A DNA stretch of 64,000 nt, taken from a virus. Below are positions 15,954 to 29,719 of the stretch, in pieces. Numbering within the stretch: the stretch's first letter is position 1; each line of letters opens with the position of its first letter. The notes beneath the pieces were generated by a model. It did no database searches. It was given only the letters and a program-made list of their open reading frames with translations, and was not told the DNA's origin. The position numbers were made by a program, and so were the translations under genes. The DNA lies in the IMG/VR virus record IMGVR_UViG_3300037264_006128, positions 1-64,000 of that record; one strand, 5' to 3'.

Positions 15954-16223
15954 ATGGCTTGTGGGAAGAGGAAGTTTCAGAAGGGCGGACCGTTCCGCAC
16001 GCTGGACGAATTGAATGACTGGCTCCTGGATTGGCGCTGGGTCTACTGGCACAATGTGCCGAAGCACCCCGCGATCATCCGGAATATGTCGTTTTCGAGC
16101 GTGTACCGGGCCATGATGCTCTCAACGTTGTGCCGCGCCGAGCTTACGGAATTCGGCATACAGCAGGAAGCTGAAAAGAGGATCGATATCGTAGCGGTAT
16201 TTCAATCGGCAGAGGAACCTTGA
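15954..16223 (+). CDS. Hypothetical protein (89 aa)
   Basis: GAAAGGAGGTG precedes the ATG; the in-frame GTG two codons earlier lies inside the ribosome site. The product is helical with Trp-rich WLLDWRWVYW at residues 26-35 and no Cys cluster. It is the first gene after an internal promoter. Function unknown. Confidence 0.5.
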   Translation: MACGKRKFQKGGPFRTLDELNDWLLDWRWVYWHNVPKHPAIIRNMSFSSVYRAMMLSTLCRAELTEFGIQQEAEKRIDIVAVFQSAEEP

Positions 16224-16225
16224 AG

Positions 16226-16645
16226 ATGACCACCCCGCCATTCTCCCGTACCAAATGCAGTTGCCCAGACTGCCAAGACTGTTGCCGGCGCGGGAGCGGC
16301 CCACTTCTACCTGGCGATGCGGAACGGATCGAGCAGTACACTGGGAAGCCAGCGCCGACCAAGGCCGGGACCGGAACGGTTATCGGGCGGCGGGACGAAT
16401 GCGGGGACCTGTTGATCCTGCGGATTCCATCCGTGGTGTTGCAGACAGCGCCTTCTGGCGGGTGCGTGTTCTATGCGGCAGAGGAAGGGTTGTGCGCGAT
16501 CCATGAGGTTGCGCCGTGGGGATGTGCGTACTTCGACACGCACATGGATCGGGACGAAGCGGACGATCGGGTGCGGTGGTACGTGAGCCAGATGCTGGGG
16601 GAACCGTGGCGAAGGAAACCGAAAGAAAAGGAGGTGAACGAATGA
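16226..16645 (+). CDS. YkgJ-like CxxCxxCC metal-binding protein (139 aa)
   Basis: The N-terminus carries CSCPDCQDCC, and a later part has GGCVFY, GLCAIH and GCAYFDTH. This spacing of Cys clusters is that of the YkgJ family (zinc- or iron-chelating CxCxxCC domain). The start is placed at the ATG following AGAGGA; a TTG two codons earlier overlaps the previous stop. The family's biological role is not established. In an early phage operon it may chelate metal or bind a host protein; this is inference. Confidence 0.75.
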   Translation: MTTPPFSRTKCSCPDCQDCCRRGSGPLLPGDAERIEQYTGKPAPTKAGTGTVIGRRDECGDLLILRIPSVVLQTAPSGGCVFYAAEEGLCAIHEVAPWGCAYFDTHMDRDEADDRVRWYVSQMLGEPWRRKPKEKEVNE

Positions 16646-21227: not shown

Positions 21228-22751
21228 ATGAAGGAGCTGATCGAACAGCTGAAACAGGCAAGAAAGGTGGCGACCCCACTGGTGGTGGTGGGGACGTATG
21301 ACCCGGAAGTTACGTTGACCACCCTGCGTACGTTGCTGAACGGAAAGAGCCCGCTGTTGACGTGGGATTGCGTTGACGGCGTACGGGAAAGGAACGAGCT
21401 GGGGCAGGCGGCAATGAGTGCTGTAAACCCAGAGCAGTGCTTCAAACCTACGGGGATGCTGGTGCAGGCAAGGGAACTACCGGCGAAGACCGTTTTGGCA
21501 ATGGTTCACCCGCATCGGTTCTTCGATGACCCCACGGTGGTAGAGGCGATTCGGCAGCTACGCGACCCGTTCGCTACGAACACGCGCATGCTGGTGCTGC
21601 TGTGCCCGGAGGCATCGGTGCCGCAGGAGTTGCGGCAATCGGTGGTGACGCTGAACGAACGGCTGCCTACAAAGGAGCAGCTGAGTTCCGTGGCGCAGGT
21701 GGTGTACAACGACCTGCGGGAGAAGAACCCGGCAACGCCAGCCCCTACCGAACAGGACCTGACGGCCGCGGCGCAAGCCATGCAGGGGTTCGGCAAGTTC
21801 ATGGCTAGCCAGGTCGGCTACCTGGGGATCAACTTCGATACCGCACGGGTGGACATCGAAGCGATGTGGGGCGTGAAGCGTTCGTTGATTGCGCAGGTGC
21901 CGGGGCTGAGCGCGGTGGAACCGGGCCTAACGTTTGCGGACATCGGCGGTTGCGGGGCGGCGAAGGAATACATGCTGCGCCGCGCTGCCGGAAAGAGGCG
22001 CCCAGCCCTGATCGTGATGATTGACGAGATCGAGAAGCAGATGGCGGGGAGCGGTTCCGGTGGGGATTCCAGTGGTGTGAGCACCTACATCAAGGGCGCG
22101 ATTCTGCAAGCGTGGCAGGACTACGAGTGGGATGGGATGTTGGAGCCGGGGCCGCCGGGGTGCAGCAAGAGCCACTTCATCAAGTGCTGCGCGGCGGAAC
22201 TGAAAGTGCCTGTTTTCAAGATGGACCTTGGCGCGACCAAGGGCCAGTACGTGGGCGTATCCGAACAGAACATCAACGAGGCCTTGCGCACGTTGCACGC
22301 CATCGGCGGGAAGGACGTGTTCTTCATGGCCACGTGCAACGACATGCAGGTGGTGACCGCCGATCTGCGACGCCGGTTCCGTTCTGGCGTATGGTACTTC
22401 CCACTTCCGGGGGGCGACGAGTTGGACGCGATCTGGGGCATTCACCTTACCAAACGCGGATTGCCGCTGGATATGCCGCGGCCGGACGATACGAACTACA
22501 CCGGCAGCGACGTGGAAACGGTGTGCGAACGGGCGTGGGAGCTGGAGATCGACTTGAAAGAAGCGGCCGAGAAGTACCTGACGCCAGTGTTCAAGACCAA
22601 CCGGGAAAGCATCCTAGCGTTGGAGAAGTTGGCGGCAGGGCGATTCCTGGACGCGAACACCGGAGGGCTGTACAACCCAAGCGCAGGTAGCCGCAGACAG
22701 GTCAGGCGGGTTTCCTCCGGGCGTGGGTTGGGAGCCGTGGCGAATGGGTAG
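21228..22751 (+). CDS. ycf46: Ycf46-like AAA+ ATPase with rearranged core (507 aa)
   Basis: AAAGGAGGTG precedes the ATG. Residues 1-175 match the N-terminal domain of Ycf46-type ATPases: PLVVVGTYDPE start, TWDCVDG, HPHRFFDDP, a VLLCP strand and ERLPTKE. An AAA+ core follows, but in unusual order. First come ADIGG and a Walker B strand IVMIDEIEK (Asp-Glu at 266-267) with a Gly/Ser loop. Then come the P-loop GPPGCSKS (308-315), VGVSE, the sensor-1 strand FFMATCND (about 367) and an Arg finger region LRRRFRSG. In canonical AAA+ proteins the P-loop comes first. The lid follows, to about residue 450. It probably remodels a protein target with its DUF1257 and DUF2997 neighbours. Confidence 0.8.
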   Translation: MKELIEQLKQARKVATPLVVVGTYDPEVTLTTLRTLLNGKSPLLTWDCVDGVRERNELGQAAMSAVNPEQCFKPTGMLVQARELPAKTVLAMVHPHRFFDDPTVVEAIRQLRDPFATNTRMLVLLCPEASVPQELRQSVVTLNERLPTKEQLSSVAQVVYNDLREKNPATPAPTEQDLTAAAQAMQGFGKFMASQVGYLGINFDTARVDIEAMWGVKRSLIAQVPGLSAVEPGLTFADIGGCGAAKEYMLRRAAGKRRPALIVMIDEIEKQMAGSGSGGDSSGVSTYIKGAILQAWQDYEWDGMLEPGPPGCSKSHFIKCCAAELKVPVFKMDLGATKGQYVGVSEQNINEALRTLHAIGGKDVFFMATCNDMQVVTADLRRRFRSGVWYFPLPGGDELDAIWGIHLTKRGLPLDMPRPDDTNYTGSDVETVCERAWELEIDLKEAAEKYLTPVFKTNRESILALEKLAAGRFLDANTGGLYNPSAGSRRQVRRVSSGRGLGAVANG

Positions 22752-23203: not shown

Positions 23204-23668
23204 GTGAGCCATACGGTAAGTATCGAAATCGAGGTGACAGACTTGCACGCACTGGGGAAAGCCGCGGAAGACTGCGGATTGACGTTGGCGCTCGGACAGG
23301 AAACGTACCGCAAGTACCAGCGTTCAACCCCGGGGGAATGCACCCACGCCATTGGGGACCCGGCCGCCACGCGGACGTACGAAGTGGGCATAATGGAAGT
23401 CGGCTGCGAGGAGAAGGGCGCCCGCTACGAATTGATGTGGGACCCATACAATGGTGGGTACGGCCTGATGGATCACGTTGGGGAGGGCGCCTGTAAGCTG
23501 CGCCAGGCGTATGCCGTGCGGGTGGCGGAGAAGCAGGCACGTAAGGAAGGGTGGGAGGTGAACCTGAAGAAGCAGGACAACGGGGATGTGGTGTTGGAGC
23601 TGCGGCAGGAAGTAGGGGCAGGGGCGCAACAGTACGGCGCCGCCGCTCAGGCAGGACGCAACTGGTAG
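23204..23668 (+). CDS. ycf35: Ycf35-like protein, DUF1257 (154 aa)
   Basis: GTG start after AAAGGAGGTG. The start SHTVSIEIEVTDLHALGKA and the GQETYR strand are the hallmark of DUF1257/Ycf35. Later parts also fit: a WDPYNGGYGL turn, LRQAYAVRVAEKQARKEGW helix and a final strand DVVLELR. Length agrees with the family. In cyanobacteria and other bacteria DUF1257 genes are found near Ycf46-type ATPases and DUF2997; the same set is present here, in one operon. Confidence 0.8.
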   Translation: MSHTVSIEIEVTDLHALGKAAEDCGLTLALGQETYRKYQRSTPGECTHAIGDPAATRTYEVGIMEVGCEEKGARYELMWDPYNGGYGLMDHVGEGACKLRQAYAVRVAEKQARKEGWEVNLKKQDNGDVVLELRQEVGAGAQQYGAAAQAGRNW

Positions 23669-24225: not shown

Positions 24226-24483
24226 ATGACATTCCTAACGGCACACTGCCTGGTGATCAAGCGGGACGGGACGATCAAGTGCGTGTACAACGATCGCGTG
24301 CAGCCGACCCTGGAAGGGCTTGGGGGAAAAATGAGCATCCGCAGGGCCAGCCACGTGGAGCCAACGGCGGATTGCAAGTGGGAAGCGGACCTTTCGCCTT
24401 CCCAGGGCCCGGTGCTGGGACCGTTCGAACGGCGGGAAGATGCGCTGGAAGCGGAACGGGCGTGGCTAGGGAGAAACTTGTAA
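24226..24483 (+). CDS. Conserved small protein with RASHVEP motif (85 aa)
   Basis: GGAGGAGGTG precedes the ATG. The pattern (IKRDGTIKCVYND, IRRASHVEP, GPVLGPFERREDALEAE) is one I associate with small phage and plasmid proteins of unknown role. It shares the operon with the Ycf46 module. Confidence 0.6.
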   Translation: MTFLTAHCLVIKRDGTIKCVYNDRVQPTLEGLGGKMSIRRASHVEPTADCKWEADLSPSQGPVLGPFERREDALEAERAWLGRNL

Positions 24484-26904: not shown

Positions 26905-28218
26905 ATGGCGAACGGAAAACCGACGCAGCAAGACGATCCGCAGAACAAGAAACTGGCGACCGTGCCAGAAGGGGCAGCTGAATTCTCCCTGACGGTTCGC
27001 GGCAACCAGCCGGACCAGATGGTGGTACGGCCCCACAACCTGGACGAACTGCTCGCGAACGCGAAGATGATCGCCTTTTCGAATCTCGTGCCGGAAGCAT
27101 TCAAGGGCAAGCCGGATGATGTCGCCGTGGCTATCCAGATGGGAATGGAAGTGGGATTGCACCCCATGCAGGCAATGCAGTCCATCGCCGTGATCCGTGG
27201 CCGACCGTGCATCTGGGGGGAAGCCGTGAAGGCTTTGGTGCTCTCCAGCGGCCTGTGTGAATACTGGATTGATTCCCCGCCGGATCAGATCCGCGAAACG
27301 GGGGTCGCCACCTGCCGCACGAAACGGCGCGGCTGGCCGGAGGAGTCCGTTTACAGCTTTTCCGTTGACGACGCCAAGATCGCCGGCCTGTGGGGGAAAG
27401 AGGGCCCATGGAAGGCATACCCTGCCCGGATGCTACTCGCCCGCGCACGCGGCTTCCTGGCAAAGGACACGTATCCAGACGTTCTGCGGGGCATGGCGGT
27501 ACGGGAAGAGGTGGATGATCTGCCGGAAGCGGGGCAGTTCGCTGCCGCGGAGGTGATCATCCCGTTGCAGGAGCCGCGGCGGAAGAGTGCGGCCGAAGCC
27601 TCCCGGGAAACCGTCACGGTTCAGCGCGTGGTTCCCGAAGAAGCGATCAATGCGGAGTTTCACGTGAAACACGCCCAGGCCGCCGAAGCGGAGGAAGCCC
27701 CACCGCAGAAGAAGACGGTGCCGCCGAAGAAGCAACCTGAACCGAAGCCCGCCCTGAAAGTTCAGGAGGATCCGCCGCCACCGCCACCAGACGACGACCC
27801 TCAAGGCGAAGACCAGCCGCCATTTGACGCGCCAACCACAACCAAGGCCTCCGTGGAAAAGGCGCAGGCGGCAGAGGCGGAGCTGGGCGAACAGCTGAAC
27901 CTCCTGAAGGGCGCAGCAAAGCCAGCCGCACAACCCGTGGCGCAGGAGGCCAAACGTGCGCCTGCGAAAGCAACCGCCTGGGAGCTGACTACGACGGTGC
28001 AATACGCAGGGAAGCAGATCAAGACCGGCGGGATCAGTGCCATCACCCTGCTAAAAGTGCAGCGCGGGGCAGAGCGGTTCGATGGCATTCACTACCAGGG
28101 CGCGGCGACGGAGGCCCTGGCAACGATGTTCCCGGACGACACCCCGCCGGGGTTTGAATACCTGGGCGAAGACGCAGGGCGGGAATTCTTGCAGTACATG
28201 AAAGAGAACGAGAAGTAG
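26905..28218 (+). CDS. recT: RecT-family single-strand annealing protein (437 aa)
   Basis: Residues about 40-200 contain the RecT core: AIQMGMEVGLHPMQAMQSIAV, IRGRPCIWGEA, a WKAYPARMLLARARGF segment and DTYPDVLRG. This family anneals complementary single strands during phage recombination. A long Pro/Ala/Glu/Lys linker (about residues 240-340) and a separate C-terminal domain of about 80 residues follow, which makes it longer than most RecT proteins. The exonuclease gene follows 16 bp downstream, the normal pairing. Confidence 0.85.
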   Translation: MANGKPTQQDDPQNKKLATVPEGAAEFSLTVRGNQPDQMVVRPHNLDELLANAKMIAFSNLVPEAFKGKPDDVAVAIQMGMEVGLHPMQAMQSIAVIRGRPCIWGEAVKALVLSSGLCEYWIDSPPDQIRETGVATCRTKRRGWPEESVYSFSVDDAKIAGLWGKEGPWKAYPARMLLARARGFLAKDTYPDVLRGMAVREEVDDLPEAGQFAAAEVIIPLQEPRRKSAAEASRETVTVQRVVPEEAINAEFHVKHAQAAEAEEAPPQKKTVPPKKQPEPKPALKVQEDPPPPPPDDDPQGEDQPPFDAPTTTKASVEKAQAAEAELGEQLNLLKGAAKPAAQPVAQEAKRAPAKATAWELTTTVQYAGKQIKTGGISAITLLKVQRGAERFDGIHYQGAATEALATMFPDDTPPGFEYLGEDAGREFLQYMKENEK

Positions 28219-28951: not shown

Positions 28952-29719
28952 ATGGCATCGAGGGCGTTAGCGTTTGAAGAGGAAGATTTTCAGTACCAAA
29001 CGTTGCAGGGCGAATCGGGCGCGCTGCCGAACGAACTGCAGGTGGAACTGCAGGAATTTGCGGCTGGTTCCGATCTGCCGGTAACCACGGACGAGGAATT
29101 CGTTGTGGCGGCGCAATATCTGCGGGATGAAGTTGCCCCACGAATCCGGGCGGTGAAGGCATTCTTCAAGCCCATGAAGGAATCTGCTGCCAAGGCGCAT
29201 GCGGCGATCTGCACCCAGGAACATCGGGTACTGGACAAGATCGTGAACATTGGGGATTTGGTGAAGAAACGGCTGAACGATTACGACAACGCGAAGCGGG
29301 AAGCGGCCGAACAGTTGGCCCGGGCGGCGCGGGAGGAAGCACAGCGGCAAGCTGCGGAACAGCGGTTGACGGAAGTGCAGAAGAAGCTGGACGAAGGGGA
29401 CGATGAAGCTGCGGAAAGGTTACTGCAGGCGAACGTGGTACCCAAGATTGCCGTTCCGGTTGTGGCGCCCACGGCACCGGCAGTGAAGGGGATCACGCGG
29501 CAATCCCGTTGGGTTGGCGAAGTGGTGGACCCGGTGGCGTTTGTTCGCTGGATTGCCAGCGGTACGGACGAAGAAGTGCGGCACCGCCTGCACTTCGTGG
29601 AAATCTCCCAGGCCGAACTGAACCGCCTGGCCGCTGCGCAGCGTGGCACCATGCAGGTTCCCGGCGTGGTGGCGAAAGAAGTTTCCAACATGATCACCCG
29701 CGGCAAGGCGGGGGCATGA
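28952..29719 (+). CDS. Coiled-coil recombination-operon protein (255 aa)
   Basis: GAAAGGAATG precedes the ATG. Residues 75-170 are a long Ala/Glu/Lys/Arg coiled coil. The C-terminal 80 residues contain QSRWVGEVVDPVAFVRWI, an ELNRLAA helix and PGVVAKEVS, a layout common in phage proteins encoded beside RecT/exonuclease pairs. The role is not established; protection or loading of ends is a reasonable guess. Confidence 0.55.
   Translation: MASRALAFEEEDFQYQTLQGESGALPNELQVELQEFAAGSDLPVTTDEEFVVAAQYLRDEVAPRIRAVKAFFKPMKESAAKAHAAICTQEHRVLDKIVNIGDLVKKRLNDYDNAKREAAEQLARAAREEAQRQAAEQRLTEVQKKLDEGDDEAAERLLQANVVPKIAVPVVAPTAPAVKGITRQSRWVGEVVDPVAFVRWIASGTDEEVRHRLHFVEISQAELNRLAAAQRGTMQVPGVVAKEVSNMITRGKAGA

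Follow-up and report, generated by a model that had tools for sequence, protein, structure and literature searches.

The window, 64,000 nucleotides of a 96,451-base virus record, contains on its plus strand an intact open reading frame (positions 21228-22751), preceded by a strong ribosome-binding site, AGGAGGTG, upstream of the ATG at 21228. It encodes a Ycf46-like AAA+ ATPase of 507 residues whose motifs are permuted. From the N-terminus, ADIGG (237-241) is followed by IVMIDEIEK (262-270), a Gly/Ser loop with a helix, and GPPGCSKS (308-315); C-terminal of this P-loop are YVGVSE (341-346), FFMATCND (365-372), and RRRF with Arg383. The Walker B motif (Asp266/Glu267) is thus located 42 residues N-terminal to the P-loop. 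The four blocks into which the protein can be divided, together with the conserved neighbouring genes, are listed in Table 1. The N-terminal domain in block A has no P-loop; it consists of alternating strands and helices and then becomes helical, and is AAA-like in outline. The canonical place of block C is after block B.

Table 1. Blocks of the permuted AAA+ gene and conserved neighbouring genes in the window
Feature	Position	Strand	Basis
Block A: N-terminal domain, ADIGG linker and helix; residues 1-259	21228..22004	+	Profile 18-290 of phrog_8638; secondary structure
Block C: Walker B strand IVMIDEIEK, Gly/Ser loop, helix 3; residues 260-300	22005..22127	+	Profile 366-403; Asp266 and Glu267 invariant
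Block B: P-loop strand and GPPGCSKS, helix 1, strand 2, pore loop 1 YVG, helix 2; residues 301-362	22128..22313	+	Profile 307-364; Lys314 invariant
Walker A GPPGCSKS (308-315); Ser replaces Gly before Lys	22149..22172	+	
Block D: sensor 1 (Asn371), Arg finger (Arg383), strand 5, helical lid, C-terminal tail; residues 363-507	22314..22748	+	Profile 407-458; Asn371 and Arg383 invariant
DUF1257 (Ycf35)-like protein	23204..23668	+	Pfam DUF1257 E 0.0084; relative 6e-11; 107 of 117 loci
Small "HVEP..GPVLGPF" protein	24226..24480	+	Present at 46 of 117 permuted loci and at 5 of 8 from Planctomycetota
DUF3150-like partner, 329 residues	24516..25505	+	108 of 117 loci; DUF3150 above cut-off in one locus (L143); model pLDDT 91.8

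The block order was examined with phrog_8638, a profile of 568 positions for phage Ycf46-like proteins in the canonical order. For Stenotrophomonas phage Summit, whose protein has the normal order, the match to this profile is a single stretch, 282-456. The window protein (E value of 4e-29) and its homologue in phage Tunturi_3 (8e-40) are matched in four stretches covering the N-terminal domain and the AAA module. In the window protein, these stretches follow each other as profile positions 18-290 (residues 1-253), 366-403 (Walker B), 307-364 (P-loop), and 407-458 (sensor 1). Each segment is matched once, and no second Walker B or P-loop was found in the 507-residue reading frame. The A-C-B-D order relative to this profile was observed in all of the 21 phage records, in one of which (G018) the Walker B stretch itself was below the threshold.

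A hidden Markov model built from 75 canonical cores gave the same picture; re-ordered strings served for scoring only. As written, the core of the window protein scored 50.5 bits (58 columns); read as A-B-C-D, it scored 147.9 bits (221 columns), whereas the five other block orders scored 50.7 to 89.9 bits. Re-reading as A-B-C-D raised the score in 81 of 84 permuted proteins, with a median gain of 119 bits, and canonical proteins showed the mirror-image gain against a permuted model. Judged by these single-domain scores, the exchanged order is far above chance.

The initial annotation had already given this motif order, and re-reading of the translation reproduced each motif as well as the numbering of Glu267 and Lys314. 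Its statement that the Walker B segment was moved and not duplicated also stands. The term "circular permutation", which it had applied, is not appropriate: block A remains first and block D last, and only B and C trade places. Along the chain, the strands are in the order b3-b1-b2-b4-b5, while a circular permutation would yield beta3-4-5-1-2. The alignments show that two adjacent blocks have been exchanged, one from the P-loop to helix 2 (about 62 residues) and the other from Walker B to helix 3 (about 40 residues). The moved blocks are composed of the P-loop strand, a1, b2 and a2, and of the Walker B strand and a3, respectively; sensor 1, the Arg finger and the lid are unmoved. The lengths of the blocks are nearly unchanged between permuted and canonical proteins (62 and 60 residues for B, 39 and 42 for C).

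The assignment to the Ycf46-like AAA+ ATPases, likewise proposed initially, agrees with the homology to phrog_8638 and with the Pfam AAA score of 45.5 bits (cut-off, 21.2), although that alignment covers only positions 5-62 of 131. A Walker A motif with the invariant Lys, a Walker B of the hhhhDE type (IVMIDE), sensor 1 and the Arg finger are all present. In 185 rows of the homologue set described below, Walker B comes first, then the P-loop and sensor 1, in place of the usual succession of P-loop, Walker B and sensor 1. Because the homology and every residue are retained despite the changed order, the protein is still classed, from its sequence, as an AAA+ ATPase of variant topology.

A scan of viral contigs with the single protein gave no matches. 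When alignments were used to scan viral and genome contigs, some of which appear in more than one scan, 185 permuted rows (129 distinct cores) and 77 canonical relatives were obtained; 15 rows could not be classified by the motif patterns. The spacing from DEIEK to the P-loop is -38 to -45 residues in the permuted proteins and +58 or +59 in the canonical ones, with no intermediates. The search for homologues of the same motif order that the initial annotation had suggested thus returned 184 other rows. One of them is gp103 of Tunturi_3, an isolated podovirus of Tunturiibacter, which is a collinear homologue with 35% identity and 95% coverage in one tblastn piece. This protein is annotated as "ATPase", a word absent from the paper describing the phage (PMC11924767). 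Many phages carrying the permuted gene are 90-110 kb in size. In genome contigs, the gene was found in Acidobacteriota, Nitrospirota, Armatimonadota and a deltaproteobacterial bin, where a prophage, a binned phage or a host gene is alike possible. Since the window belongs to a metagenomic viral record, an error of assembly or sequencing had to be considered as the source of the order. Such an artefact is ruled out with practical certainty, because an isolated phage whose genome is fully sequenced has the same order in a protein of 35% identity, as do many independent contigs. It should be mentioned that one permuted gene (L117:9120-9570, approximately) carries an intein-like insert within sensor 1 (ATC / CLTGDT...VVHN / CNN), which scored 26.7 bits against Pfam Intein_splicing, below the cut-off.

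Asp266, Glu267, Lys314, Asn371, Arg383 and Gly343 are invariant in 80 sequences having about 28-39% identity to the window protein. The position before the P-loop Lys is different in this respect. In the 185 permuted rows it is occupied by Gly (82), Ala (79), Ser (23) or Cys (1), whereas it is Gly in 76 of the 77 canonical rows. The requirement for Gly at this position seems to have been relaxed along with the permutation. Ala or Ser is found here in more than half of the permuted rows (102 of 185) but in only 1 of the 77 canonical rows, a difference that might be taken to mean that the exchange abolished catalysis and that the protein persists as a scaffold. Such an inactive pseudo-ATPase is very unlikely, however, because the Lys, the Asp-Glu pair, the sensor Asn and the Arg finger are all retained in the 80 diverged sequences, an invariance that would scarcely be expected if ATP were not turned over. 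In addition, many permuted members have a perfect GxxGxGKS. Ala at this position does not imply inactivity, since MCM helicases have Ala there.

The structure of the window protein was predicted by AlphaFold2 with 80 permuted sequences, giving a mean pLDDT of 94.1 and a pTM of 0.88. A structure prediction had been proposed as a check by the initial annotation; the model obtained is of high confidence and shows the Walker B segment as a strand. The core elements of the model are b3 (261-265), a3 (284-299), b1 (302-307), a1 (314-325), b2 (329-332), a2 (342-363), b4 (364-370) and b5 (388-390). Ten-residue blocks at the new junctions have mean confidence values of 96-98. In Foldseek searches, the best viral matches were models of phage Ycf46 proteins (TM of 0.71 by query), and the best PDB matches were chains of p97/Cdc48, spanning both AAA domains. 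The latter matches are in line with a predicted arrangement of two AAA-like domains, of which the N-terminal one lacks a P-loop and the second is the permuted one.

The five strands would still assemble as 5-1-4-3-2, since the new junctions need to reach no farther than one or two strand positions away and the handedness of the crossovers can be kept. In such a sheet, the links b2-b3 and b3-b4 are replaced by b3-b1 and b2-b4; each of the new links spans two positions without a change of direction, so that the crossover handedness could be preserved, and the exchange seems to be topologically mild. Mean-field couplings were calculated from 124 permuted cores (effective number, 92). Ranked by the top-five mean z among the ten strand pairs, b3-b4 is first (3.1), b1-b5 second (2.65), b3-b2 fourth (2.35) and b1-b4 sixth (2.14). 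The non-neighbouring pair b4-b5 is third (2.36), due to one pair. Taken alone, these couplings lean only slightly toward the normal sheet. Given the change of order, it is conceivable that the Walker B block inserts into the sheet of the adjacent subunit in a three-dimensionally swapped ring, so that each active site would be formed from two chains even within the core; a monomer prediction does not discriminate between the two arrangements. The junctions are short and confidently predicted in cis, and packing within a single chain needs only small shifts, which makes the swapped ring very improbable.

For the tree, the blocks were aligned one by one and concatenated in the canonical order. 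The 43 permuted rows that were included are all on one side of a branch with an SH-aLRT value of 100, and their sister is a group of seven canonical genes from Planctomycetota (98). The tree based on the unmoved blocks A and D only gave the same grouping, with values of 100 and 98; the single clade is therefore not a product of the block cutting. The simplest account of these sequence relationships is one exchange event in a shared ancestor of a wide range of phages. The family is diverse and has some long branches, as might be expected if permutation had occurred repeatedly and independently. This alternative is even less probable than the swapped ring, because the permuted proteins form one clade with either set of blocks and because the spacing is nearly constant. 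As for the genetic route of the single exchange, a tandem duplication of B-C, after which the first B and the second C were lost, would be the likeliest. No protein carrying both copies, as in an A-B-C-B-C-D-type intermediate, was found among the 185 permuted and 77 canonical rows classified.

The neighbourhood was surveyed at 117 permuted loci with flanks of up to 8 kb; some of these loci are duplicates of one contig, and several of the Pfam assignments are below the curated cut-off for single members. DUF3150-like proteins were found at 108 loci, DUF1257/Ycf35-like proteins at 107, DUF2997-like proteins at 84 and the small HVEP protein at 46. The module predates the exchange, because the Planctomycetota sister loci carry the same neighbours. 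A cyanobacterial cluster of DUF2997, ycf35 and fed7 is also known (PMC4284462). The predicted model of the DUF3150-like partner gave no PDB match with an E value below 0.6. Gp96 of Tunturi_3 (L001:11693-12652), annotated as an HNH endonuclease, belongs to this partner family and has no HNH match in PHROGs; it is probably misannotated. A radical SAM (Fer4_12) protein is located near the module in 18 of the 117 loci (for example, L140:12361-12969). A Cys-rich protein (CSCPDCQDCC...) at window positions 16175-16642, common to eight permuted loci, is possibly a metal-cluster protein.

In one Planctomycetota operon (L156:6500-13507), genes for DUF1257, DUF2997, a canonical Ycf46-like AAA+ protein, the DUF3150-like protein, HVEP, a ThiS-like protein and ThiF are clustered, which might represent a ubiquitin-like conjugation setting for the Ycf46/Ycf35 proteins. 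Conjugation of the ThiF type was rejected for the phages, as ThiF is absent from all 21 phage records. A ternary system of the MoxR-vWA type was also rejected: no vWA domain was above the cut-off in these 21 records, with one weak match. Downstream of the AAA+ gene, the window encodes a RecT-like annealing protein (26905-28215) and an exonuclease (28952-29716), a phage recombination pair, and in another locus (L123) a primase and a beta clamp are near the permuted gene. Judged from these genes, the setting is an early, DNA-metabolism region.

These results are best explained by a working Ycf46-like AAA+ ATPase whose alpha/beta core was rewired once, when the blocks b1-a1-b2-a2 (P-loop) and b3-a3 (Walker B) were exchanged, and which would act as a substrate-remodelling ring; we consider this reading very probable. 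As in the AAA+ family generally, the protein would form a ring. The P-loop and Walker B would come together in the fold to bind ATP, and the Arg finger of the neighbouring subunit would complete the site. Pore loop 1 (YVG) might then move and pull or remodel a protein substrate. From motifs and neighbours, the likeliest role of the co-encoded DUF3150-like, DUF1257 and DUF2997-like proteins is to serve the ring as adaptors or to regulate it. In the early region of the phage, the permuted protein most likely functions as a ring ATPase that remodels substrates. It is also probable, if slightly less so, that the permuted proteins represent a widespread AAA+ lineage of single origin with an active non-canonical core, b3-b1-b2-b4-b5, and that the canonical chain order is dispensable for AAA+ function. 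If this is true, pore loop 1 and helix 2 are wired directly to sensor 1, and the Walker B/pore-loop-2 unit is on the N-terminal side.

Recognition of AAA+ proteins, including automated annotation, presumes a fixed succession of motifs. Searches that depend on this order miss or truncate such proteins; here, Pfam detects only half of the domain. The arrangement suggests that the folding and coupling of AAA+ motors tolerate a changed chain order. As a natural experiment, it can be used to ask which chain connections are important when ATP drives the motion of the pore loops, and a single event with a close unpermuted sister gives a basis for comparison.

No earlier account of an AAA+ ATPase with an exchanged core came up in the open literature searched. 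The initial annotation knew of no such arrangement in the Ycf46 group, and our search, which covered open-access papers, likewise found only permuted methylases, a permuted transglutaminase-like peptidase and permuted GTPases. The circularly permuted GTPases RbgA/YlqF and RsgA/YjeQ (PMC6912228) are also P-loop NTPases that remain functional with re-ordered nucleotide-binding motifs. However, they belong to the TRAFAC class and show true circular permutation, whereas the phage protein is an AAA+ ATPase in which two internal blocks are exchanged. D1-D2 of p97/Cdc48, to which the best PDB matches belong, has a similar tandem AAA-like layout with pore loop 1 before G-x-SE, but is in the canonical order and shows 11-17% identity. 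The Ycf46-like proteins (phage phrog_8638 and plastid or cyanobacterial Ycf46) are homologous over most of the length and have in common the N-terminal domain, the GG linker, all AAA+ motifs, the lid and the DEIEK Walker B; in the known members, however, the P-loop precedes Walker B. The sister clade from Planctomycetota (L149-L156) shares a C-terminal signature (WTGAEI..CC, VPV, GR.LSA) and the neighbours DUF1257, DUF2997, DUF3150-like and HVEP with the permuted loci. It differs in its canonical order and its location on bacterial contigs, one of which (L156) carries the ThiS-like and ThiF genes.
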